In this document: positions 22,389 to 32,721 of the stretch, in pieces
How positions within the stretch are numbered: position 1 is the first letter of the stretch
How the letters are laid out: each line of letters begins with the position of its first letter
Virus record (IMG/VR): IMGVR_UViG_3300018081_000006
Location: 1 to 48,254 of that record
Length of the DNA: 48,254 nucleotides
DNA from: a virus
Reading direction: 5' to 3' (one strand)
The notes under the pieces: model-generated
What the model saw: only the letters and a program-made list of their open reading frames with translations
Databases searched by the model: none
Told to the model about the DNA's origin: nothing
Translations under genes and position numbers: made by a program

Positions 22389-23483
22389 TTAGTAGTCGAT
22401 TATCGGTGGATACCGTGGCTTGTTGAAGATTCCTCCCTCGATGGATTCGGCTCGACGTAGAAAGTTCTGGAACTCCTGCCACTTCTCGGGATCGTTCCTT
22501 CTGGGGGGATTCGCCATCCCGGTCTCAGGATCGATGAAGTCTGCCCATCCCGACTTCTCTGTTGCTGCCCTCTGCAATGCTGACGATCGAGCAGTTGCCT
22601 GAGCATTCGGGTCCATCGGAGTGGAGGCGATTCGAGACTCACGTTCCTGTCCAAGTCGGAGATTTCCTTCACCAGTTGCCGCTTGACGATTCGCGACACC
22701 GACGTTGGCCCATCCAATCTTTCGGGTCTCGGCAGCATTCTTGATATCCGCTGCCTTGTCAGATGCTCCGACCAGACGACCCGGACCAGTTGATCCAGGC
22801 ATCCTCTCACGGAGATTTCCTTGTTCATCCGTGTAGGTTTCCAGATCCTGACGATCCCAACGACCCCTTTCGGCGGCTCGTTGATTCTCGTCGTTGGCCT
22901 CCTGTTGAAGTTTGAAGTCGTAGTCTCGCATCCACTTCCCGTATTCCCGTTCGTCCTTCGACATCTGACGAGCAGTATTCATGAAGTCGATGCGACGTTG
23001 AGATGCCTTGTCCTCGGCGGCAACGTTGCGACCCAGAGCCTGTTCTTTCGCAGCCCACTGACCAAGCTCTCGCTTGTATGGAGCCGTAGCAGCTTCCTGA
23101 GCAGCACGCCATCCTGAAGCAGCACCTGAGCGAAGTCCTTCAGCACCTCCAACAAGAGCTGCTCCGAACTTGCCCCACTTGGAAGGTGTCTGATATTCAG
23201 GCATTTGTCCAAGATGCTCTTTATACGCGCTCTGGGCCGGACCCTCCTTCGTATAAGCATCCCGCAACTCAGACATCCAGTTGCCCCAATCAGGTCCAGA
23301 TGGTTGAGGAGGACCAGCATTGGCGGTGACGGCTGGCTGCTCGTAAGTTCCTGCCTGCTCTAGAAATCTTTGTTGATTGGCAGCGGCAGGATCTTCTGGA
23401 GCGCCAGAGAAAGCGTTCCTTCGCTTCTTGGGAGCATAGATCTCCCCGAAGTCGAAGTTCTCGAATGCATTTCTGAGGGACAT
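22389..23483 (-). CDS. putative internal virion protein (364 aa)
   Basis: Start ATG 23483 overlaps the previous stop (TAATG). The open frame extends upstream, but that part is a shadow of the preceding gene. The protein is helical and charged, with Arg, Gln, Glu and Ala (for example KQALGRNVAAEDKASQRRID and KRELGQWAAKEQ), and has an aromatic N-terminal segment (AFENFDFGEIYAPKKRR). It lies between two other long late proteins and looks like an ejection protein; no family is recognised. Confidence 0.6.
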   Translation of the reverse strand: MSLRNAFENFDFGEIYAPKKRRNAFSGAPEDPAAANQQRFLEQAGTYEQPAVTANAGPPQPSGPDWGNWMSELRDAYTKEGPAQSAYKEHLGQMPEYQTPSKWGKFGAALVGGAEGLRSGAASGWRAAQEAATAPYKRELGQWAAKEQALGRNVAAEDKASQRRIDFMNTARQMSKDEREYGKWMRDYDFKLQQEANDENQRAAERGRWDRQDLETYTDEQGNLRERMPGSTGPGRLVGASDKAADIKNAAETRKIGWANVGVANRQAATGEGNLRLGQERESRIASTPMDPNAQATARSSALQRAATEKSGWADFIDPETGMANPPRRNDPEKWQEFQNFLRRAESIEGGIFNKPRYPPIIDY

Positions 23484-24802
23484 TACATCCACGCTCCGTT
23501 CAACTTCTTGAGGTTTTGTGCTCCTCCGAGACCACTGATTCCTGTTGAGACCCCACCTGTCATGAGGCCACCCGCGATACCAGCACCAGCTCCGAGGAGA
23601 TTGGTTGCTGTATCCCATGCGCTCTTGTTATTGCCCGGCGCACCATATCTCTGGCCGATAGTCTGATTGGCCGCTCCAGCTTGTCCTCCAATGCCTTCGA
23701 GCTGATAGCCCGTCTGCATATTGACTTCGCCTGGTGTCTGACCACGCAGTTTGAAGAGACCTTCCATCCCTTCCATCCGCAACATGTCGTTGTAACGAGC
23801 GTTGGAAGAACCTGCTGATGCATTCGATGCTGCATTGGCTGCTTCCGCTCCAGCAACCGATTCGAGGCCTTGCGCGCCTGAGAGCTTGCCTCTCTGCAAC
23901 ATCTCCTGAATTCCAGATTCCGATTGATTCCACATGCCAGCACCAGACAAACGATTCTTGGCAGTGGTGTCGGCCAATCCCATCTCGCCGCCGAGCGCTC
24001 CGCCCATGCCAGCCAGACGATTGGAACTCAAGAGCCCTTGGAGGTTCCCTTCCGAGGAGGCCATACCTTCGCCGCCCCATTGACGACCCTGACGGACTCT
24101 ATCTGAAATTCCGAGTTCAGTTCCGAGAGCAGCTTCTCCAGCCGCTTTAGATCGGTCCCTTCCCATCTTAAGCGCAGCTGCATTCGCCATCGCCGAGGAA
24201 CCACCCCTGATTCGTCTGGCACGATTCATCTCATCCGACATTCCCCCATACATCGCCGATATGGGAGCATTCCCACGTGCTCTGAGATTACGAGCCTCAG
24301 CCTCAGAGACGCCGCCAGTCCGAGCAAACTCATCGAATATGCCGCCACCACGCATCCGTGCTTGAGCAGCCGCATCGACTCCCCCGGTCTCACCGAGAGT
24401 TCGATACTTTTGGATATCTCTGAGAATTCGCGCTTTCGTGTCGGCATCGAATCCGCCAGTTTCCGAAATCTCCTTCATCGTGCCATGACCGGCCTGACGA
24501 ATCTTCTCCTCGTCGATGCCTCCGGTCTTGCCGAACAGTTCGTAGATCTCTTTGGCCTGACCATAAGTGGCCGGTAGAGCCCACCCGCCCCCACCTCCAC
24601 CACCATAGCCAGCTCCAGCCAGATTGCCAGATGCCAGATTCCCGTATTGTTCTTCCAGCGTTCCAGCCAATCTGTCAGACCGCTCTTGTGCGGTTCCAGA
24701 TCGAGCCGTCTGTTGATCGATGAACGACCCATAGTTCTTGTTCTGGGTCTGTAGCTGAGCAGTGTTCAGCTTGTTCGTGTTTTTCGCTTCACCTTTTGCC
24801 AT
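23483..24802 (-). CDS. putative internal virion protein with TGG repeats (439 aa)
   Basis: Ala/Gly/Met-rich helical protein. The first third holds four units beginning TGG(I/F/V), spaced by about 20 to 35 residues, each with a helix such as 'DEEKIRQ', 'DADTKARI', 'DAAAQARM', 'SEAEARNL' (about residues 92-180). A Gly-rich run precedes them. The C-terminus has a hydrophobic glycine-rich segment (LLGAGAGIAGGLMTGGVSTG), typical of membrane-inserting ejection proteins. ATG 24802 overlaps the previous stop. Internal virion assignment is by position and composition. Confidence 0.6.
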   Translation of the reverse strand: MAKGEAKNTNKLNTAQLQTQNKNYGSFIDQQTARSGTAQERSDRLAGTLEEQYGNLASGNLAGAGYGGGGGGGWALPATYGQAKEIYELFGKTGGIDEEKIRQAGHGTMKEISETGGFDADTKARILRDIQKYRTLGETGGVDAAAQARMRGGGIFDEFARTGGVSEAEARNLRARGNAPISAMYGGMSDEMNRARRIRGGSSAMANAAALKMGRDRSKAAGEAALGTELGISDRVRQGRQWGGEGMASSEGNLQGLLSSNRLAGMGGALGGEMGLADTTAKNRLSGAGMWNQSESGIQEMLQRGKLSGAQGLESVAGAEAANAASNASAGSSNARYNDMLRMEGMEGLFKLRGQTPGEVNMQTGYQLEGIGGQAGAANQTIGQRYGAPGNNKSAWDTATNLLGAGAGIAGGLMTGGVSTGISGLGGAQNLKKLNGAWM

Positions 24803-25188
24803 CAGAACTCCTTGACTAGGGCGACGCCAGTAGCTATTTTGAAACCGAACTTCTGACAGAGAAGGCGTTGCATGGCAGGATCTTGGACGAACACATGAAG
24901 ATGCTCAATGTTCTGATCCTCACACGCTCGAAATCCTTCCGCTAACAGCTTTTCCAATGCAATCAATCGATCAGCTTTGGACTTGCTAAGATCGAGAATC
25001 GCGATACCTTCAGCAAATCCCTTAACAAGACCAAAACCGATGATTGCTCCATCCTTATCAGCCACAACAGTCGTGATAATGTTCGTTAGAGCAGGCAATC
25101 CAAAATGCTCTGAATGTCCTGACTCCTTCCAGATTCGATCTATCTCCTCAAGATCCCTCTGCTTCAATTCACGCAAATGAATCGACAT
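24802..25188 (-). CDS. GNAT-like acetyltransferase (128 aa)
   Basis: A small GNAT-type domain: N-terminal strand and helix (HLRELKQRDLEEIDRIWKESG), central strand with GAIIGFGLVKGFAEGIAILDL, then a helix and 'IEHLHVFVQDPAMQRLLCQKFGFKIA', which matches the late conserved part of GNAT folds (N-x-x-A-x-x-L-Y-x-K-x-G-F). The acetyl-CoA loop (Q/R-x-x-G-x-G/A) is degenerate. It overlaps the methyltransferase gene by 20 bases and closes the modification cassette, so it may act on the same substrate or on virion proteins. Confidence 0.65.
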   Translation of the reverse strand: MSIHLRELKQRDLEEIDRIWKESGHSEHFGLPALTNIITTVVADKDGAIIGFGLVKGFAEGIAILDLSKSKADRLIALEKLLAEGFRACEDQNIEHLHVFVQDPAMQRLLCQKFGFKIATGVALVKEF

Positions 25189-26578
25189 GCATGGACCTCA
25201 ACAGATAAGCTACGATATTTCCATCCCTACTCGTCTTGCGAGTAATGAACTTGAATCTGAAATATTCCTCAGCCCATGCATCCAGGTTTTCTCCATCGTA
25301 TGTATAGATCAGGAGATAGTCAGTGTCACGGGCAATGCGTGCAAATAGCTCTTTGCGGTCCTCCTTATTCATCTCAATGAATCGATTCACCGAAATGAGA
25401 ATCAAACCATAAGGAGGATTCCACTGAGCTTCATCTGTCAAGTCGCCATGAACAATGACAATCCTTGATGCATCCATCCTTTCTTTTGCCCGCTCCCAGC
25501 GAGCTAGGTCAATCTCGATTCCGTGTAGATCAGCCGGGAACATCTTGCCGATCTTTTCCAATAGAACGCCATTCCCACAGCCCAAATCAAGGACCTTAGT
25601 GATAGCTGGGACTTCAAGTCTAGTCAAGGTCTCAAGCAAAATCACATGGGCTTTGTCCATATCAGCGATGGAATCAAACCCATTGTCTCGCCAGAGAAAA
25701 GCATTCCTCTTGAGCAACTGAATCGGAGAGGATCGCATGAACGGAAATTCGAGTCCTGAAGCTCCCTCTTTCGGATAGCTTGTCCCCTTCCGATCAATGA
25801 TGATCTTCTCTGCAAAAGCGTCCGTGGAAGTGACGATTCGCATAACAGGAGTCGTGATGGTCACGATCCCATGCAACGAATTCCATCGGATTGGCCAGTC
25901 AAGCATCTCACGAAGCCATGAGGTTTCTTGAGGAAATAGACGGCCTGCTAACTCAAGGAGCATCTTGCCCATGCGTTCAGTTGCTGAACAGTTAAAGCTG
26001 CAAGGAAGATGGCTAACTGCTCTGACTCCAAGCCATCGGAGGAGAATATTGCATTCAATTGGGCCATTGACCTCGTAATGAGTCTTGTCACCCAATTCTA
26101 TTACCATCGGATAAGTCGTGTCCCTGAATCCTCCATTGACCCAATACGTCTGGAAGAATTCCACGCAGCAATCAGGAAAGCCCAAGAGAGAACCAATGGC
26201 TCGATCATCCTTTGCTTTCCATGCCTTCAAAAATTGACGAAGAACACCATGTCGAGCAATGGCCAGTCGATAGGCCCAAGGCTTTCCATCCTCAAAGGGA
26301 ATCGCAGCATTCGAGTATGATCCTGAAGAACCACATCGTTCAAGTGGCGCGACATCAAGACCTAGGTCCAGAGTCTCATCAGCTAGACCAGCAAGTTCCT
26401 GTGGAGTAGAGGCTTGCAGAGCTGCTGGCTTGATGCCCTCACGAACTGCATGGACCTCAACACGTTGGAACATCTGGGAGACAACACTAATCCTTGGCTC
26501 CCAAACCGATCGTGCTTCTTCACTGACCCAAATAGTTCTCACGAACTCTGGAACAGTGAGATCAATCCTTTCATTCAT
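25169..26578 (-). CDS. Cys-rich (DUF483-like) domain fused to SAM methyltransferase (469 aa)
   Basis: Two domains. Residues about 100-215 hold GFPDCCVEFF (133-142) and HLPCSFNCSAT (190-200), a Cys-rich arrangement that resembles DUF483 domains. Residues 325 to 450 are a class I SAM-dependent methyltransferase: VLDLGCGNGVLLEKIG (329-344, motif I), HGIEIDLARWERA (352-364), VIVHGDLT (374-381) and a post-motif strand LILISVNRFIEM. Start ATG 26578 overlaps the radical SAM gene by eight bases. Immediate coupling to that gene suggests the same peptide or protein substrate. Specific target atom unknown. Confidence 0.8.
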   Translation of the reverse strand: MNERIDLTVPEFVRTIWVSEEARSVWEPRISVVSQMFQRVEVHAVREGIKPAALQASTPQELAGLADETLDLGLDVAPLERCGSSGSYSNAAIPFEDGKPWAYRLAIARHGVLRQFLKAWKAKDDRAIGSLLGFPDCCVEFFQTYWVNGGFRDTTYPMVIELGDKTHYEVNGPIECNILLRWLGVRAVSHLPCSFNCSATERMGKMLLELAGRLFPQETSWLREMLDWPIRWNSLHGIVTITTPVMRIVTSTDAFAEKIIIDRKGTSYPKEGASGLEFPFMRSSPIQLLKRNAFLWRDNGFDSIADMDKAHVILLETLTRLEVPAITKVLDLGCGNGVLLEKIGKMFPADLHGIEIDLARWERAKERMDASRIVIVHGDLTDEAQWNPPYGLILISVNRFIEMNKEDRKELFARIARDTDYLLIYTYDGENLDAWAEEYFRFKFITRKTSRDGNIVAYLLRSMHVDSFA

Positions 26579-27740
26579 CGAATGGACTCCGCTCTAGAAT
26601 AACCGCTGGAATGCCCTTTGGATAGTCTGTATGGTCCCCATGCTCGTCGCCATGAGGTCTGTCTCCATGCTGATTAGATTGCCCTTGCTCAACAAAGATT
26701 TTCTGAGTTAGAGCTTTCTTCTGACATGAAGTTAGGAGATTTTCTTGATTGTCCTTCTCAATCCTAGAGAATAGAGAATACCAGAGAGAACAGTTTATGG
26801 TTCGGTTTCTCCAGTCTCCGTCGATTGCAGTTCCAGGACAATGCCCTTTGCAGAAAACGAAATATTGACAGTCTTTACACCCTCCAAACTTCTGAGGAGT
26901 TCCATAAAGCGAGATATATCTTTCTCGCCCGGGAGTGTTAGCTTTAACCCAGTTGATCCCGTCCTTGTTAGTCCGACCGCAATTTGACATTGTTCCATCA
27001 GGAGAAACTCCCTGAACTGCTGCCGTCGTCAGTGGATCACAATGATTCCAGGTGCACATGACCTGAGGATTCTCTTGAGTGAGCAGCTTCTTGATGTCCA
27101 TGAATGGCTCAACCTGCATGGCCGAGAACTTTGACCATTCATAGAGATGAAGAAACGTCTCAATCTGCCTCGTCTCGGATAGTGCTAGATGGTGCTGACC
27201 ACAATCGATCTCCATTTCATGCAGGTTCAGATGCTTGACCCCGAGAGCCTCAAGCTCATTGAACCAGTTTGTCAACTGTTCCAGATCGTTATTTCCCTTG
27301 TGGATCGTGCAAATGATTGATGGGATGACTTTTACAGCACAGAGTTTCCGAATCGCAACTTCAGTTCGAGCAGTCAACTCTAGAGAGCAGCGAACTGCAT
27401 TCATCTCATCAGGACCATCAAAGGAAATTCCCACACCAACCTTATACTTGGCGAACATCTCAATATGCTCGTCAGTGATCAACGATCCATTGGTCTGGAT
27501 TCCATTACTTCCAAATCTCTCGAGACCAAATTCCCAGACTTCCTTTAGATGCTCGATAGGAGCAAGCAATGGCTCACCACCAAAGACAGCAAAGTTTTGA
27601 CCCAGTCTATCAAGCTGTCTCTTGGCATGAGACCAATCGCGAGGCATGTTGATATTGCCAGCATCTCGCATGGGATCTTGATAGCAATACCCACACTTGA
27701 TGTTGCAGGCGATACCAACGGGTAAATACTCGACAGACAT
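26571..27740 (-). CDS. radical SAM/SPASM protein maturase with HxD tail (389 aa)
   Basis: A radical SAM enzyme with the canonical CxxxCxxC (C12, C16, C19) that binds the SAM-cleaving 4Fe-4S cluster, followed by FGGEPLL (53-59). A SPASM-type domain for auxiliary clusters follows, with C229, C234, C254, C288, C291, C297, C301 and C317 ('SPDGTMSNCG' and 'CKDCQYFVFCKGHC' being typical). Members of this family modify ribosomal peptides or proteins. After residue 350 a tail carries HGD, HGD, HGD and HTD triplets (358-372), echoing the upstream HxD protein. The start overlaps that gene's stop (TAATG). Its substrate is most likely the HxD protein; this is inference. Confidence 0.9.
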   Translation of the reverse strand: MSVEYLPVGIACNIKCGYCYQDPMRDAGNINMPRDWSHAKRQLDRLGQNFAVFGGEPLLAPIEHLKEVWEFGLERFGSNGIQTNGSLITDEHIEMFAKYKVGVGISFDGPDEMNAVRCSLELTARTEVAIRKLCAVKVIPSIICTIHKGNNDLEQLTNWFNELEALGVKHLNLHEMEIDCGQHHLALSETRQIETFLHLYEWSKFSAMQVEPFMDIKKLLTQENPQVMCTWNHCDPLTTAAVQGVSPDGTMSNCGRTNKDGINWVKANTPGRERYISLYGTPQKFGGCKDCQYFVFCKGHCPGTAIDGDWRNRTINCSLWYSLFSRIEKDNQENLLTSCQKKALTQKIFVEQGQSNQHGDRPHGDEHGDHTDYPKGIPAVILERSPFDE

Positions 27741-28603
27741 TAATAACCTACAAACGTCGGATTGTCAACATGCGGAACGTCGACGTGAGCTACGTCCGTG
27801 TGATCACTATGTGGGACATCACTGTGTGGCACGTCACCATGTGCTCCAGCAGGAACATCCGAGTGTGGAGTATCTCCATGACTGTAACCACCTGGGTCAT
27901 CATGATGAGGCACATCGGAATGAGTGTCTGAATGCACAACATCTCCATGCTCATCGACATGGGAGTCTGTATGAAGCCTAGATCCATCATTGTGATAATC
28001 GGTGTGACCATCCTGATGAGAATAATCGGTATGATTGACATCGAAATGTCCACCAGCAGGTGCATCATAGTGGTCCATATGCCCACCATCACCATGATAG
28101 CCATCATCATGGGCATCTGCATGATCATCCCAATGAGCATAGTCATCATGATAATCCGTATGAGAATCACCATGAGGCCAATCGTTATGGACGTCGTTAT
28201 GAATTACATCCTGATGCCCACCAGGAGCAAGGTCTGTATGAGCAACTTGGTCTGTGTGGTCCACATGGGTCGATGCACCACCGCCATCTTGATGAACCGT
28301 GTCTGCATGGACCCAACAATCATAGGGATCGATTTCAATATGGAGATTGTTTCCATCAATCCATATAGATCCCCACATCCTTCCAGCTACGGTGCTGAGA
28401 ATGACAATGGGAAGTCTGAAATGAGCAGTCCCAGCTTGATTGACGTAATTGATTCCCCACGGATCGCACCAAACAGATCCTGGGGCTGCAGATCCAGTGA
28501 CATATTTGATGAACTCACCAGTAGTTCTCCACTCAGCTCCACCAGAGCCAACGTAGTGGAAAGTATCTCCATCTATCCAGATTGAGCCAGGAGCTTTCGG
28601 CAT
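27740..28603 (-). CDS. His-Xaa-Asp repeat protein, probable modified tail component (287 aa)
   Basis: The N-terminal third has three related units beginning PGSIWIDG, PGSVWCDP and WGSIWIDG (about 5, 41 and 77), like short repeats of tail fibre proteins. From residue 99 to 280 there are about 36 His-Xaa-Asp triplets, one roughly every five residues, with small or polar residues between them and few hydrophobics. Nothing suggests an enzyme. HxD triplets could bind metal ions or be sites of modification by the downstream radical SAM enzyme. Start ATG 28603 overlaps the fibre gene stop (TAATG). The match to known precursor families is by analogy only. Confidence 0.8.
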   Translation of the reverse strand: MPKAPGSIWIDGDTFHYVGSGGAEWRTTGEFIKYVTGSAAPGSVWCDPWGINYVNQAGTAHFRLPIVILSTVAGRMWGSIWIDGNNLHIEIDPYDCWVHADTVHQDGGGASTHVDHTDQVAHTDLAPGGHQDVIHNDVHNDWPHGDSHTDYHDDYAHWDDHADAHDDGYHGDGGHMDHYDAPAGGHFDVNHTDYSHQDGHTDYHNDGSRLHTDSHVDEHGDVVHSDTHSDVPHHDDPGGYSHGDTPHSDVPAGAHGDVPHSDVPHSDHTDVAHVDVPHVDNPTFVGY

Positions 28604-29229
28604 TACAGGGGCGCCCAAGCATCAACGCCAACCGGGATGACCAAACGGTGCGTGAAATGAGCCACCATGTCTCCGTAGATATTCATGCCAACACGATCTG
28701 CGTTTCGATTTCTGATCTGAAATGCGTAGTCGCCTCTGACGTATCCTGCCTGAGCGATCAGACCAAAAGAGCCACCAGAAACACCAGACCCAACGAAGAA
28801 TCCAGCATATCCGGCTGAAGTTGGAGGACCGTATGAAACTAGTCCATGACCTGCATTCTGGTTGATGGTCAACGTCCCAGAATGCACATTGATGCCGTTG
28901 TGGAGAGTCACAGCACTAAGACTTCCTCCAGTGACAGCAATTGCGTTGGCATTTTGGATCGCCATCGTCCCTAGACCAAGAGCAGTGCGTGCTCCAGCTA
29001 GAGTATTGGACCCAGTGCCGCCTCCCTCAACAGCTAAAATGCGATCGACAAATGCAGTTCCACTCCACTCCTGAAACTTGACAGGTGCCCTGACGAGCTT
29101 AATTGCTCCAGTCGGAGGACCAGTTACAGGATTGAGTTGTAAAGTGATTGCGTCGACGTCACGATTCTTCGCCTCATCGACGAAGAGGACGTAATCACTT
29201 AGAATTGTCGGCTTCGACCAATCTGCCAT
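28603..29229 (-). CDS. tail fibre protein (208 aa)
   Basis: Contains the phage tail fibre repeat 'GGTGSNTLAGARTALGLG' followed by AIQNANAIAVTGGSLSAVTLHNG, typical of fibre shafts, and an N-terminal LSDYVLFVDEAKNRDVDAI segment. The C-terminal half is a Gly/Ser-rich beta domain (VSYGPPTSAGYAGFFVGSGVSGGSFGL). Start ATG 29229; the stop overlaps the HxD gene start. It probably forms a trimeric fibre with the neighbouring gene products. Confidence 0.8.
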   Translation of the reverse strand: MADWSKPTILSDYVLFVDEAKNRDVDAITLQLNPVTGPPTGAIKLVRAPVKFQEWSGTAFVDRILAVEGGGTGSNTLAGARTALGLGTMAIQNANAIAVTGGSLSAVTLHNGINVHSGTLTINQNAGHGLVSYGPPTSAGYAGFFVGSGVSGGSFGLIAQAGYVRGDYAFQIRNRNADRVGMNIYGDMVAHFTHRLVIPVGVDAWAPL

Positions 29230-29376: not shown

Positions 29377-29712
29377 TCAGATTGGATCGGGAGTTCCTTG
29401 AACTGTGCCTGGAAGGACTCCATCAGCAGATAGCTTTTCCAGGATTCTCTTATTCATGGATTTCGTTGTAAAGTTTCCGGTATTGATGGCTTTTATGTAG
29501 TCAACTGCTTCTTTTCCAATATATGTATGTGTGAATAGGCCACCAAGATTATCCTTTAAATTGATACGAAAATATCCCGATTCCTGAACAGCCGGTGGAG
29601 GAGGCTGGGGCTGAATAATAGTCTCGTGATCCATTATTAGAGATATTATCTTATACTTGGCTTTAACCTGCTCAGGAGTAACCTCTGGCTCAGTCAGAAC
29701 TAATTCTTCCAT
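29377..29712 (-). CDS. hypothetical tail-region protein (111 aa)
   Basis: Not recognised. A Pro-rich linker (IIQPQPPPPAVQ) separates an acidic N-terminal helix from a mixed C-terminal domain (FRINLKDNLGGLFTHTYIGKEAVDYIK). ATG 29712 overlaps the stop of the fibre gene before it. Likely a tail accessory protein by position. Confidence 0.55.
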   Translation of the reverse strand: MEELVLTEPEVTPEQVKAKYKIISLIMDHETIIQPQPPPPAVQESGYFRINLKDNLGGLFTHTYIGKEAVDYIKAINTGNFTTKSMNKRILEKLSADGVLPGTVQGTPDPI

Positions 29713-30923
29713 TACTTTCTCTCCGCTAGTTCCTGAATGGCAGCAACGAGCATTGGGATCATTTCGAGGTAATTGATCTGCACAAGGCCATCTGGAGTGA
29801 GAGGTGTTTTCATTCCTGTATTGCGAACCAGCTCAGGCGCGATTTTCTGAACATCCTGTGCGAGTAATCCGAGATGCATGTTGAGATCTGGGTCATCACT
29901 AACTGGCAAGAAATAGAACGACCCCGGACGCATCTGTAGCACCTTGTCAAGACTACTTACTAGTGGTGTGAAATCGCGCTTAATACGTGCGTCAGAAGCG
30001 AGCGTGATGTCGCCAAAGTAGCTCGCGTCGATCCAGCACTGGATTGCGCCGGTCCACTGGAAGTTGAAGAAATTCCCACCATAAGTGCCATACACACCCG
30101 CACGACAGGCATATCCCCATCCTGATTTTATCGTCCCACCAGTTATGAGGTTACCGCCATTGTCCAACGTGCCAGTATCGACTTGGGAGTTGTTGCGGAA
30201 AGTGATGCCGTTGCCTTGTATATAGGTGGGCGCTCCTGCCCCAAAATGAAAGCGTTGATTGCCATCATTGCTGTTGTGCCAGACACCACAAGGTAATGTC
30301 AGTATGCCACCAATGCTCGCCCCGCCCGCCACCGTCAATGCTCCAGCGAGATACAATCCGGTATTGGAATACAGCCCATAGGAAGCGTGTGAGCACAGAT
30401 ACCACGACGTTTGCACCGTCCAGCCAGTGTCTTGACGACCAGGATATATTGGCGCATTTGAGAAGAGATTCCAGCCCGAAGTTATGTCGCCTTGCGTTCC
30501 ACGAGCTGTGCTAATCGCACCAGCGCAAGTGATGTTACCAGCCGTTACATTGACGCCATTCGTAAAGTTGGTCGCCCCACAGGTCAAATCTGCGAGATTG
30601 TTAAAGGAAGCAGTGGAGACGAAATTTGCTGCTCGTATCGTTGCCCAATTACTCTGGTCAGGATAGACGGCTTCTATCGCAGATGCGTAACCACCAACAC
30701 CAACACCAGATCGAATTGCAGCACTACCAACTTGCAACCAAGGGACAGACTGCACCAATGTAAAAGTATTGGCAACATTCGTATAGGCTACAGGACCAAG
30801 AACAGCCGGACTTAACGATCCCTCATTCAAAACAGAAGCATTAAGAGGCAGAGGTGCCCACGTCAGTCCATTGTTCTCGGACTTCTCGAAGATGTGGGTC
30901 GTCTGGTTGTAACGCTGCCACAT
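29712..30923 (-). CDS. tail fibre/spike with C-terminal S74-type intramolecular chaperone (403 aa)
   Basis: The last ~100 residues form an S74-type intramolecular chaperone and self-cleaving peptidase domain: SDARIKRDFTPL (Ser near 310, Lys near 315, the catalytic dyad), LGLLAQDVQKIAPELV and the C-terminal helix MIPMLVAAIQEL. These domains help fibres trimerise and then cut themselves off. Upstream is a Gly/Asn/Thr-rich beta fibre (TNGVNVTAGNITCAGAIS, GALTVAGGASIGGILTL) and an N-terminal segment, MWQRYNQTTHIFEKSENNG, probably for attachment. Most likely a host-recognition fibre. Confidence 0.88.
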   Translation of the reverse strand: MWQRYNQTTHIFEKSENNGLTWAPLPLNASVLNEGSLSPAVLGPVAYTNVANTFTLVQSVPWLQVGSAAIRSGVGVGGYASAIEAVYPDQSNWATIRAANFVSTASFNNLADLTCGATNFTNGVNVTAGNITCAGAISTARGTQGDITSGWNLFSNAPIYPGRQDTGWTVQTSWYLCSHASYGLYSNTGLYLAGALTVAGGASIGGILTLPCGVWHNSNDGNQRFHFGAGAPTYIQGNGITFRNNSQVDTGTLDNGGNLITGGTIKSGWGYACRAGVYGTYGGNFFNFQWTGAIQCWIDASYFGDITLASDARIKRDFTPLVSSLDKVLQMRPGSFYFLPVSDDPDLNMHLGLLAQDVQKIAPELVRNTGMKTPLTPDGLVQINYLEMIPMLVAAIQELAERK

Positions 30924-31264
30924 TATCGGACAATCCTAAGATTCTGAGGAGGACCAATCCACTTGAAAACTACACCTACATCAAAAGAGCACTCTGTGTT
31001 ATCACATGCTCTTACAACGAAGGTATGAGTTCCGCTTGTTGTAAAAGGAACTGGATAGGTATAAGTGTGATTCCCTGACAACGTAGTTGGGAAACTTTCC
31101 TGGGCTGGAATCCCGACTGATTGATATTGTCCATTGTCGATTTTGACTTCAAATCGAATAATGTTTCCAATCTCTGAATCGGGATAATCCCATGCAGCTT
31201 TCAGGATCGGCTGCGATTGTAAAGGAACAGTGAGAAGAATGAGAATTAGGATTACTTTTCTCAT
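30923..31264 (-). CDS. secreted-looking Ig/FN3-like protein (113 aa)
   Basis: Start ATG 31264 (MRKVILILILLTVPLQS) gives a typical Sec-type signal peptide: basic N-terminus, hydrophobic core, then SQ-S. The mature part resembles a fibronectin type III or Ig-like beta sandwich (AAWDYPDSEIGNIIRFEVKI, GTHTFVVRACDNTECS). ATG overlaps the previous stop (ATGA). A secreted protein within the virion operon is unusual; it may be displayed at the periplasm or cell surface. An alternative is that the hydrophobic stretch is a tail anchor. Confidence 0.6.
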   Translation of the reverse strand: MRKVILILILLTVPLQSQPILKAAWDYPDSEIGNIIRFEVKIDNGQYQSVGIPAQESFPTTLSGNHTYTYPVPFTTSGTHTFVVRACDNTECSFDVGVVFKWIGPPQNLRIVR

Positions 31265-32721
31265 ACCACGCCTCGTGCCTTCCATTCAACGGTCTTGCTC
31301 ACGCGATTTCCTGTTGAGTCGAAGACAAACACTCTGAATCCCACAGGATCAGGAACATCCTGAAAGTCCACAACGACAGTGAAAGGTTCTTGTGGCGTCT
31401 TGATTGTCGCCGTGACACTTTCAACATCCTTGAAGATTTTCGTGAAATAAACCTGAGTTCCTAGAGCATCATCTTTGCTCGCGATTACTTCGCCTCCATC
31501 ATTCTCACGCTTGACTGCAATGTTGACGAGCAGATTGAAAACTCTCATCAACACAGTATCCTCACTGGCAGTGAATTCAATGCGAAGTTTGAGATAGCGC
31601 AATGAGGGAAGAAACTGTGATGCACCATGAACAAAGGGCGTATAAGTTACCCCATCATCAGAGACTGCCATCATGGTGACGACCAACATCGTTCCTTCTT
31701 GGATCAGCTTTTCACTATTGAATCGAATTGTCGCGATGACATTCTTCATCACAACACCGAAATCTACGACCTCCTCGTATGAACCAGTCAGTGCCGTTGG
31801 CTGGACATAAATTGGATATCCAGCAGTAATTTGATCTTCAGGATCACTCCATGTCCTACTTTGAAAGTGGAACTGCCAAGTTTCTGGAGCGACACAAGCG
31901 ATCAGAGAAGGTCCATCAATCTTGACCGTATTGACCTTAGTTCCATTGAACGAGCTGAGAAACTCATCTTGAAGAACATAGTCAGGCGGTTGATTGACCA
32001 AAAGCTCTATCGATGCAGGATCTCCAATATTGCCAGCAATGTCGACAGGAACAATAGTATATAGGTAAGCACCTGCAACGACCTCAAAAGAACTAAAGAA
32101 ATTTCCTTCAATGTAACCTTGTGATTCACCATCCTTGAATATCTCGTAGTAGTCAATCTCGTAGGAGCCTGTCAGAGGTTCAGTCCATTGGAGCAAGATG
32201 TTGTTGTCAATAACCTGCCCCGTAATGACAACCGCACCAGGAGGAACGATGAGAACGTCGGTCGTCGCTTCCAGATCTGAATAGTTGCCCAGATCATTCA
32301 AACTTTTGATCCGAAAGGTTCCGGTCAGACCAACAAATGGAGCTACATCAACCTGGGTCGATTGAGTCCTCAGAACGAACTGAGACGTATCCCAACTGAC
32401 CGTTCCGAATCGAATCTCATAGCTCAGAAGTCCCGGGACATCAGGCTTATCCCACGACAGTCGAATCGTGCGCTTGGTTACGACGTTCGTGAAATTGATT
32501 GGAGGATAAAGAAGCGCTCCAACAGGCGTGCGTTCCCTTAGCGTAATGACGATAGGCGAGATAGCCAGGGTCGTCTGGCGCATCTGCTCACAAAGCATCA
32601 TTATGCATTCATAGAGCTTTGGGTCTTCTAACTGGAGTCCACGAATCAGACGCTTGGCCTGATCCGTATTGTCCATGATGACCGGAAAGTCTATGTCTTC
32701 GAGCGCGATGGGATCTGCCAT
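31261..32721 (-). CDS. FN3-domain tail protein (486 aa)
   Basis: Residues about 75 to 160 and 165 to 245 form two fibronectin type III-like domains: 'TKRTIRLSWDKPDVPGLLSYEIRF' and 'NNILLQWTEPLTGSYEIDYYEIF' have the conserved Trp and Tyr pattern. An N-terminal helical part (QLEDPKLYECIMMLCEQM) precedes them and a beta-rich C-terminal region follows. FN3 repeats are common in tail proteins and bind host carbohydrates. Its neighbour upstream is the nozzle-like protein; it probably lies at the tail tip. Confidence 0.75.
   Translation of the reverse strand: MADPIALEDIDFPVIMDNTDQAKRLIRGLQLEDPKLYECIMMLCEQMRQTTLAISPIVITLRERTPVGALLYPPINFTNVVTKRTIRLSWDKPDVPGLLSYEIRFGTVSWDTSQFVLRTQSTQVDVAPFVGLTGTFRIKSLNDLGNYSDLEATTDVLIVPPGAVVITGQVIDNNILLQWTEPLTGSYEIDYYEIFKDGESQGYIEGNFFSSFEVVAGAYLYTIVPVDIAGNIGDPASIELLVNQPPDYVLQDEFLSSFNGTKVNTVKIDGPSLIACVAPETWQFHFQSRTWSDPEDQITAGYPIYVQPTALTGSYEEVVDFGVVMKNVIATIRFNSEKLIQEGTMLVVTMMAVSDDGVTYTPFVHGASQFLPSLRYLKLRIEFTASEDTVLMRVFNLLVNIAVKRENDGGEVIASKDDALGTQVYFTKIFKDVESVTATIKTPQEPFTVVVDFQDVPDPVGFRVFVFDSTGNRVSKTVEWKARGVV

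Follow-up and report, generated by a model that had tools for sequence, protein, structure and literature searches.

What does a radical S-adenosylmethionine (SAM) enzyme act on when its gene lies among the tail genes of a virus? The question is raised by IMG/VR virus record IMGVR_UViG_3300018081_000006, a 48 kb record (48,254 nucleotides, all of which we call the window) that carries terminase, DNA polymerase and tail genes. On its minus strand, a gene for a protein rich in His-Xaa-Asp (HxD) units (27740-28603, ATG start, 287 amino acids) is followed by genes for a radical SAM/SPASM enzyme (26571-27740, 389 amino acids; PF04055, 1.9e-11) and for a fusion of a DUF483-like domain with a class I SAM methyltransferase (25169-26578, 469 amino acids). 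A first-pass annotation of the window had read these three genes, with a small GNAT-like gene, as a phage cassette maturing an HxD fibre-type protein, and had suggested searching phage genomes for HxD repeats next to radical SAM genes and for a conserved gene order.

Results

Co-occurrence of the HxD Protein and the Enzyme

We searched from both ends. IMG/VR was scanned for DNA encoding four HxD units, blind to the enzyme, and the matching contigs were split by inspection of their open reading frames (ORFs), ahead of the radical SAM search, into HxD contigs and controls that match the same DNA pattern. Among the matches listed, PF04055 was found in 41 of the 49 HxD contigs (40 over the cut-off) and in 4 of the 50 controls (Fisher p = 3e-15). 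Starting from the enzyme, we found an HxD ORF in 73 of 79 viral loci, the two genes lying a median of 8 bp apart. The gene set is conserved across enzymes that are about 30-75% identical; most loci have the order HxD protein, radical SAM enzyme, DUF483, and one sub-clade has HxD protein, DUF483-methyltransferase, radical SAM enzyme. The suggested search thus came out in favour of the proposal, with the gene order mostly kept, and this two-way co-occurrence strongly supports its substrate link (the GNAT-like gene fared differently; see below). From these sequence comparisons, we consider it very probable that the locus is a phage cassette whose radical SAM enzyme modifies the adjacent HxD-repeat protein.

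Six enzyme loci lack an HxD protein: L322 encodes a protein with the same design whose repeats are FxN, four (L298, L302, L323, and L345) lie near the upstream contig end, and L296 is unexplained. Among named phages, only Thermus phages turned up with HxD proteins. We also observed HxDT-type proteins on three contigs without a radical SAM match (L034, L063, and L085); for the same protein type in L091, the enzyme is encoded elsewhere in the contig (L091/L326).

Substitutions in the HxD Units

Substitutions were counted in 88 dereplicated HxD proteins, at units flanked by other units. The third position is D in 86.7%, N in 11.9%, and E in 0.5% of the units. The first position is H in 81%; among its replacements F, Y, and W are enriched (7.4, 3.3, and 2.9 times, respectively), T is near background (1.3 times), and D, S, and V are depleted. 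A change from His to Phe needs more than one base change. Proline stands at x in 3 of 3206 cases, though it is common in spacers. Some homologues have gone over to other motifs beside the same enzyme family: for example, those at L322:2896-3942 (37 FxN and 6 HxD) and L334:6196-7983 (38 FxN and 2 HxD), in both of which F is partnered by N and seldom by D; L319, L321, and L325 hold a mixture of HxD, HxN, and FxN, and L352 has 17 WxD.

Enzymes that form three-residue cyclophanes act on similar motifs: XncB and OscB on FxN, OscB also on WxN/WxD, and YxdB on YxD (PMC11002830); links between His C2 and a Cβ are proven for HaaB, ScaB, and YhhB (PMC11002830). Because the aromatic residue at position 1, the Asp or Asn at position 3, and the switch to FxN match the proven cyclophane motifs, we infer ring-to-Cβ staples, and cyclophane-type chemistry along the HxD chain seems to us the probable outcome.

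The HxD-Repeat Protein

The window protein has three parts (all on the minus strand). An N-terminal domain (residues 1-98; 28310-28603) consists of three β repeats of ~33 residues (GSIWIDGDTFHYVG..EWR), as seen in an alignment of 22 relatives. The HxD-repeat region (residues 99-280; 27764-28309), the proposed substrate, holds 37 HxD units spaced mostly by 5 or 4 residues; when the region was shuffled 2000 times with its composition preserved, the number averaged 7.8 and never exceeded 15. The protein ends in a strand, NPTFVGY plus the stop codon (27740-27763), where the strand covers residues 283-286 and P282 is invariant in the 22 relatives. Relatives reach up to 1400 amino acids.

Between the window protein and that of L001, His is kept at 34 of 35 positions and Asp at 34 of 35, compared with 13 of 33 for the x positions and 45 of 72 for the spacers; because His and Asp are kept over x and spacer positions, selection acts at the protein level, and the pattern is no recent DNA tandem repeat. 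Conservation figures over the 22 aligned HxD proteins are partly circular, since the aligner pairs H with H; the comparison with the close relative L001 suffers less from this. Within the HxD units of the window protein, His is encoded by CAT (29) and CAC (8), and Asp by GAT (23) and GAC (14). A DNA-level tandem repeat as the source of the HxD pattern was ruled out by these mixed codons together with the protein-level conservation.

AlphaFold2 (AF2) models residues 1-100 as all-β with confidence (predicted local distance difference test, pLDDT, mostly 85-97); Foldseek and VIA searches gave no convincing match of this domain to solved structures (best Z 4.0, a lectin-like bacteriocin). We claim no fold for the repeat region, because its pLDDT is <50 over most of its length. 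The last block is a strand (283-286, pLDDT about 91) that is predicted to pair back onto the N-terminal domain, and the repeat region would then form a closed loop, held at both ends.

The Radical SAM/SPASM Enzyme

The enzyme has the radical SAM motif CX3CX2C (C12, C16, and C19; 27684-27707, minus strand), with PF04055 over the cut-off, and a SPASM region of the form C-X9-15-G-X4-C / CX2CX5CX3C / C, here C234-X14-G-X4-C254, C288X2C291X5C297X3C301, and C317 (26790-27041, minus strand); all these cysteines are invariant in 25 relatives. An NCBIfam search places it among the SPASM peptide maturases. The nearest model is that of the cyclophane maturase AmcB (2.6e-20), and the scores lie far below the cut-offs of all the cyclophane-maturase models compared (bits/cut-off: AmcB 72.8/425, YhhB 59.4/445, GrrM/OscB 43.2/310, FxsB 37/370, and XyeB 34.3/450). 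The closest solved structure is an anaerobic sulfatase maturase (9.9e-22).

The enzyme itself carries an HxD tail, a point that the first-pass annotation overlooked. In the window the tail covers residues 358-372 (HGDRPHGDEHGDHTD; 26625-26669, minus strand), and in an alignment of 25 relatives H367 and D369 are invariant, while H370 and D372 are found in at least 90%. Most phage enzymes end in this pattern, HGDxPHGDxHGDHTD, and at least two HxD units occur within the last 150 amino acids of 68 of the 85 viral radical SAM ORFs; the tail is absent from most bacterial chromosomal enzymes. In L006, L007, and L286 the repeat protein is mostly HxN, yet the enzyme tail retains HGD; since the tails of L006 and L007 keep HGD despite HxN substrates, the tail is no simple copy of the substrate.

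Two side observations concern this gene. A single in-frame TAG (L286:8691-8693) splits the enzyme frame of L286, for which recoding, decay, and sequencing error are candidate causes. Tandem pairs of radical SAM enzymes of the same family stand in one cassette in L186, L338, L341, L342, and L348; often the C-terminus of the first enzyme is enlarged and rich in HxD.

The DUF483-Like Partner and the Neighboring Genes

The fusion protein (25169-26578, minus strand) comprises a DUF483-like domain (about residues 4-283) and a methyltransferase (about residues 292-465; Methyltransf_25, 5.5e-10). The former scores 20.7 bits (4.5e-4) with DUF483 (PF04467), against a Pfam gathering score of 25, and its homologue in Thermus phage Cumys is annotated as DUF483. 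It was previously described only as the Cys-rich part of a methyltransferase fusion; the fusion and the methyltransferase are borne out, and the likeness to DUF483 had been missed. Five residues of this domain (C137, C138, H190, C193, and C197; 25988-26170, minus strand) are invariant in 38 relatives, and the resulting CC...HxPCxxxC site resembles a metal or cluster site. AF2 models the fusion with a mean pLDDT of 91.6; structure searches with this model returned matches to the methyltransferase domain and none to the DUF483-like domain. The methyltransferase fold matches NTMT1 (Z about 16-17), and in sequence or fold it is similar to protein N-terminal methyltransferases and to those of ribosomally synthesized and post-translationally modified peptides (RiPPs), including the plantazolicin methyltransferase. 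We regard the methyltransferase as optional because Thermus phages and other loci lack it.

The GNAT-like gene (24802-25188, minus strand, 128 amino acids) is an overlapping neighbor and not part of the core. Its protein, searched as a single sequence, has no Pfam or NCBIfam match; in several relatives the gene sits away from the cassette, beside the downstream structural gene, and it is absent beside the cassette in Thermus phages. Its place as fourth cassette member, an acetyltransferase in the first-pass annotation, was therefore rejected on gene order in relatives. Other parts of that description stood: ORF coordinates and PHROG and Pfam matches confirm the four genes in overlapping frames (overlaps between adjacent frames: 1, 8, 20, and 1 bases) within a tail-fibre block. 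On the same strand, a Gly-rich gene (23483-24802) lies downstream of the GNAT-like gene; a tail-fibre-like gene (28603-29229; weak tail-fibre PHROG matches) lies directly upstream of the HxD gene, with a 1-base overlap with its start. Beyond it are a tail fibre with a C-terminal S74 chaperone (29712-30923; PF13884, 2.3e-12, and tail-fibre PHROGs) and a J-like tail protein or host specificity gene (31261-32721; phrog_1727, 5.2e-20).

Probable Virion Location

Pfam and PHROG searches found no homology of the window HxD protein to known tail fibres. Among relatives, the ORF L197:2641-6219 encodes both a J-like central tail fibre with PF13550 and HxD repeats, and other HxD proteins have Laminin_G-like domains or matches to tail or virion profiles. 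In Thermus phage Cumys, the HxD gene comes after those for the baseplate and collar fibre; in phiLo, the HxD genes (phiLo_136 and phiLo_137) come after genes of the baseplate wedge. This circumstantial evidence, together with the place of the window gene in the fibre block, makes it likely that the HxD product is located in the virion tail.

Bacterial and Archaeal Relatives

In a tree of 97 enzymes, most bacterial chromosomal members form one clade (support 100/96) among the phage enzymes; the direction between phage and bacteria is unproven because the tree is midpoint-rooted. At L213:10019-10906, L216:9091-10914, and L227:9156-9953, aKG-HExxH-type peptide β-hydroxylases (TIGR04267) adjoin the radical SAM-DUF483 loci, and bacterial loci with such hydroxylases are likely RiPP clusters. 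As separate observations, several bacterial enzymes are accompanied by short HxD peptides, and three of these peptides (L207:10127-10498, L208:10131-10499, and L232:10811-11299), beside radical SAM and DUF483 genes, have twin-arginine-like signals, recognized by eye, the signals suggesting export after modification; and an archaeal locus (Diapherotrites, L231:7059-9272) has an HxD/WxD protein with the same N-terminal design together with radical SAM and DUF483 genes, and could be a provirus.

Discussion

Proposed Mechanism and Alternatives

We propose that the locus encodes a protein-stapling system of the phage, which we favor as the probable explanation of the whole. The HxD protein would be a structural, fibre-type protein with its repeat region as the substrate. 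The enzyme would take a hydrogen from the β carbon of residue 3 (Asp or Asn), and this carbon would then bond with the aromatic ring of residue 1, usually His and more rarely Phe, Tyr, or Trp. Each aromatic-x-Asp/Asn unit would in this way become a three-residue ring, and tens of them would make the chain stiffer. The DUF483-like domain, the constant partner, probably binds a metal or cluster and presents the substrate; the fused methyltransferase may serve as optional tailoring; the HGDxPHGDxHGDHTD tail could dock the enzyme on the repetitive substrate, or imitate it; and the stapled product may be assembled at the tail tip. In its widest form, the proposal is that many phage lineages make poly-cyclophane tail-fibre parts, with tens to >100 ring-to-Cβ staples per chain, by means of DUF483 and a radical SAM enzyme that bears the repeat itself, the bacterial versions appearing as if domesticated; for this we see about even chances.

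The HxD protein could instead be the substrate of an enzyme that gives another product, namely epimerized, hydroxylated, or otherwise C-C linked residues. Radical SAM/SPASM enzymes do yield many products, on repeat substrates as well (TvgB; PMC9062424), and the methyltransferase that is often fused here resembles peptide and protein methyltransferases (NTMT1 and the plantazolicin enzyme), but Thermus phages and others do without it, and an aromatic first position, a third position limited to Asp and Asn, and the switch to FxN are needed by a cyclophane and not by epimerization or hydroxylation; we consider this alternative unlikely, while giving it some weight. It is improbable that the HxD repeats serve unmodified as metal ligands, trimerizing or stiffening the fibre, with the enzyme acting elsewhere. 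His and Asp are metal ligands, and metal sites exist in tail tips, as in the HxH of T4 gp37 and in some tail fibres whose HxH tips bind iron; against this stand the co-occurrence of the HxD protein with the enzyme, the HxD tail that the enzyme bears, the near absence of Glu in place of Asp and the lack of other ligands in place of His, and the Phe-x-Asn homologues, which are unable to bind metal in this way. The earlier suggestion of cross-links or metal sites has thus gained on its cross-link side, through the substitutions and the change from HxD to FxN, and lost on the other. Modification of phage DNA by the radical SAM/DUF483 module has been suggested in print for the Thermus phages Cumys and phiMa; in its favor, some cyanobacteria have homologues close to deazapurine genes (PMC11437467). 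We think it very improbable, as the constant phage neighbor is the HxD protein and not a DNA-modification gene, and the enzyme groups with SPASM peptide maturases, carries the HxD tail, and has bacterial relatives beside HxD peptides and peptide hydroxylases.

Several points weigh against protein stapling. Eight of the 49 HxD contigs have no radical SAM enzyme among the matches listed, although some of these are fragments or DNA tandem repeats. In Bradyrhizobium, Tahibacter, and Nannocystis (L222, L224, L225, L226, L228, L230, and L218) the enzyme and DUF483 are present and no HxD protein was found; other motif-rich substrates were sought beside the HxD-less bacterial enzymes, and nothing clear emerged. 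Family membership does not reveal the reaction, because the enzyme scores far short of the cut-off of every cyclophane-maturase model. In the open-access literature we found no report of the His-to-Asp cyclophane itself, the known His links ending on Ala or Arg, and no virion proteomics.

If the stapling proposal is true, phages would have a widespread radical-chemistry maturation of structural proteins, of which we found no earlier description in the open-access literature, and with it a covalent route to fibres that are both thin and rigid; cyclophane enzymes would gain substrates of a new size class, and the DUF483 family would gain a role. The HxD cassette occurs in many uncultivated phages and in a few lab-grown ones. 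The proposal makes the module of the cultivable Thermus phages, which has been published without an explanation, directly open to testing by routine proteomics, and enzyme specificity can be studied with the HxD, HxN, FxN, and WxD variants that nature already provides.

Comparison with Known Systems

The first-pass annotation compared the locus with the His-Xaa-Ser (Hxs) systems. The likeness is one of concept, a His-x repeat protein with a radical SAM enzyme; the window has a single radical SAM enzyme, and Asp or Asn stands where Hxs has Ser. Membership in Hxs was ruled out on the family models: HxsA (TIGR03979) gave no match up to E 10, HxsC (TIGR03977) gave none, and HxsB (TIGR03978) scored 26 bits against a cut-off of 370.

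A better match in kind is offered by the triceptide systems (XncB, OscB/GrrM, MscB, YxdB, HaaB, and YhhB), in which a SPASM radical SAM enzyme likewise stands beside an aromatic-x-X substrate (PMC11002830). The adjacent aromatic-x-Asp/Asn substrate of triceptides is present here, as HxD in the window and as FxN, WxD, and YxD in relatives. Their substrate is a short precursor peptide, whereas here it is a phage protein of roughly 200-1400 amino acids with tens of units (287 amino acids in the window), short HxD peptides being found only in bacterial relatives. Unlike theirs, the present enzyme falls outside every known model, has a DUF483 partner, and carries an HxD tail. The locus appears to work in the manner of a triceptide system, but it matches the models of neither family, and we assign it to neither.

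Two published systems come close in other respects. In the TVG system (TvgA/TvgB), a radical SAM enzyme also acts many times along a repeat substrate, TvgB making cyclopropylglycine in the TVGG repeat (PMC9062424); the TVG motif, the reaction, and the partners differ from those proposed here. Our literature search, limited to open-access papers, turned up no paper that names HxD repeats as the substrate of the radical SAM/DUF483 module or that describes a radical-SAM-modified virion protein. The module itself was described in Viruses in 2024, where a radical SAM enzyme, DUF483, and an unknown protein of Cumys and phiMa were grouped and DNA modification was suggested (PMC11437467); the part of that article drawn on here calls the partner unknown and leaves HxD unmentioned, unlike the present reading. 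The Cumys genes are the same as those of the window: Cumys_13 is the HxD protein (phiMa_29 in phiMa), Cumys_12 the radical SAM enzyme, and Cumys_11 the DUF483 protein.

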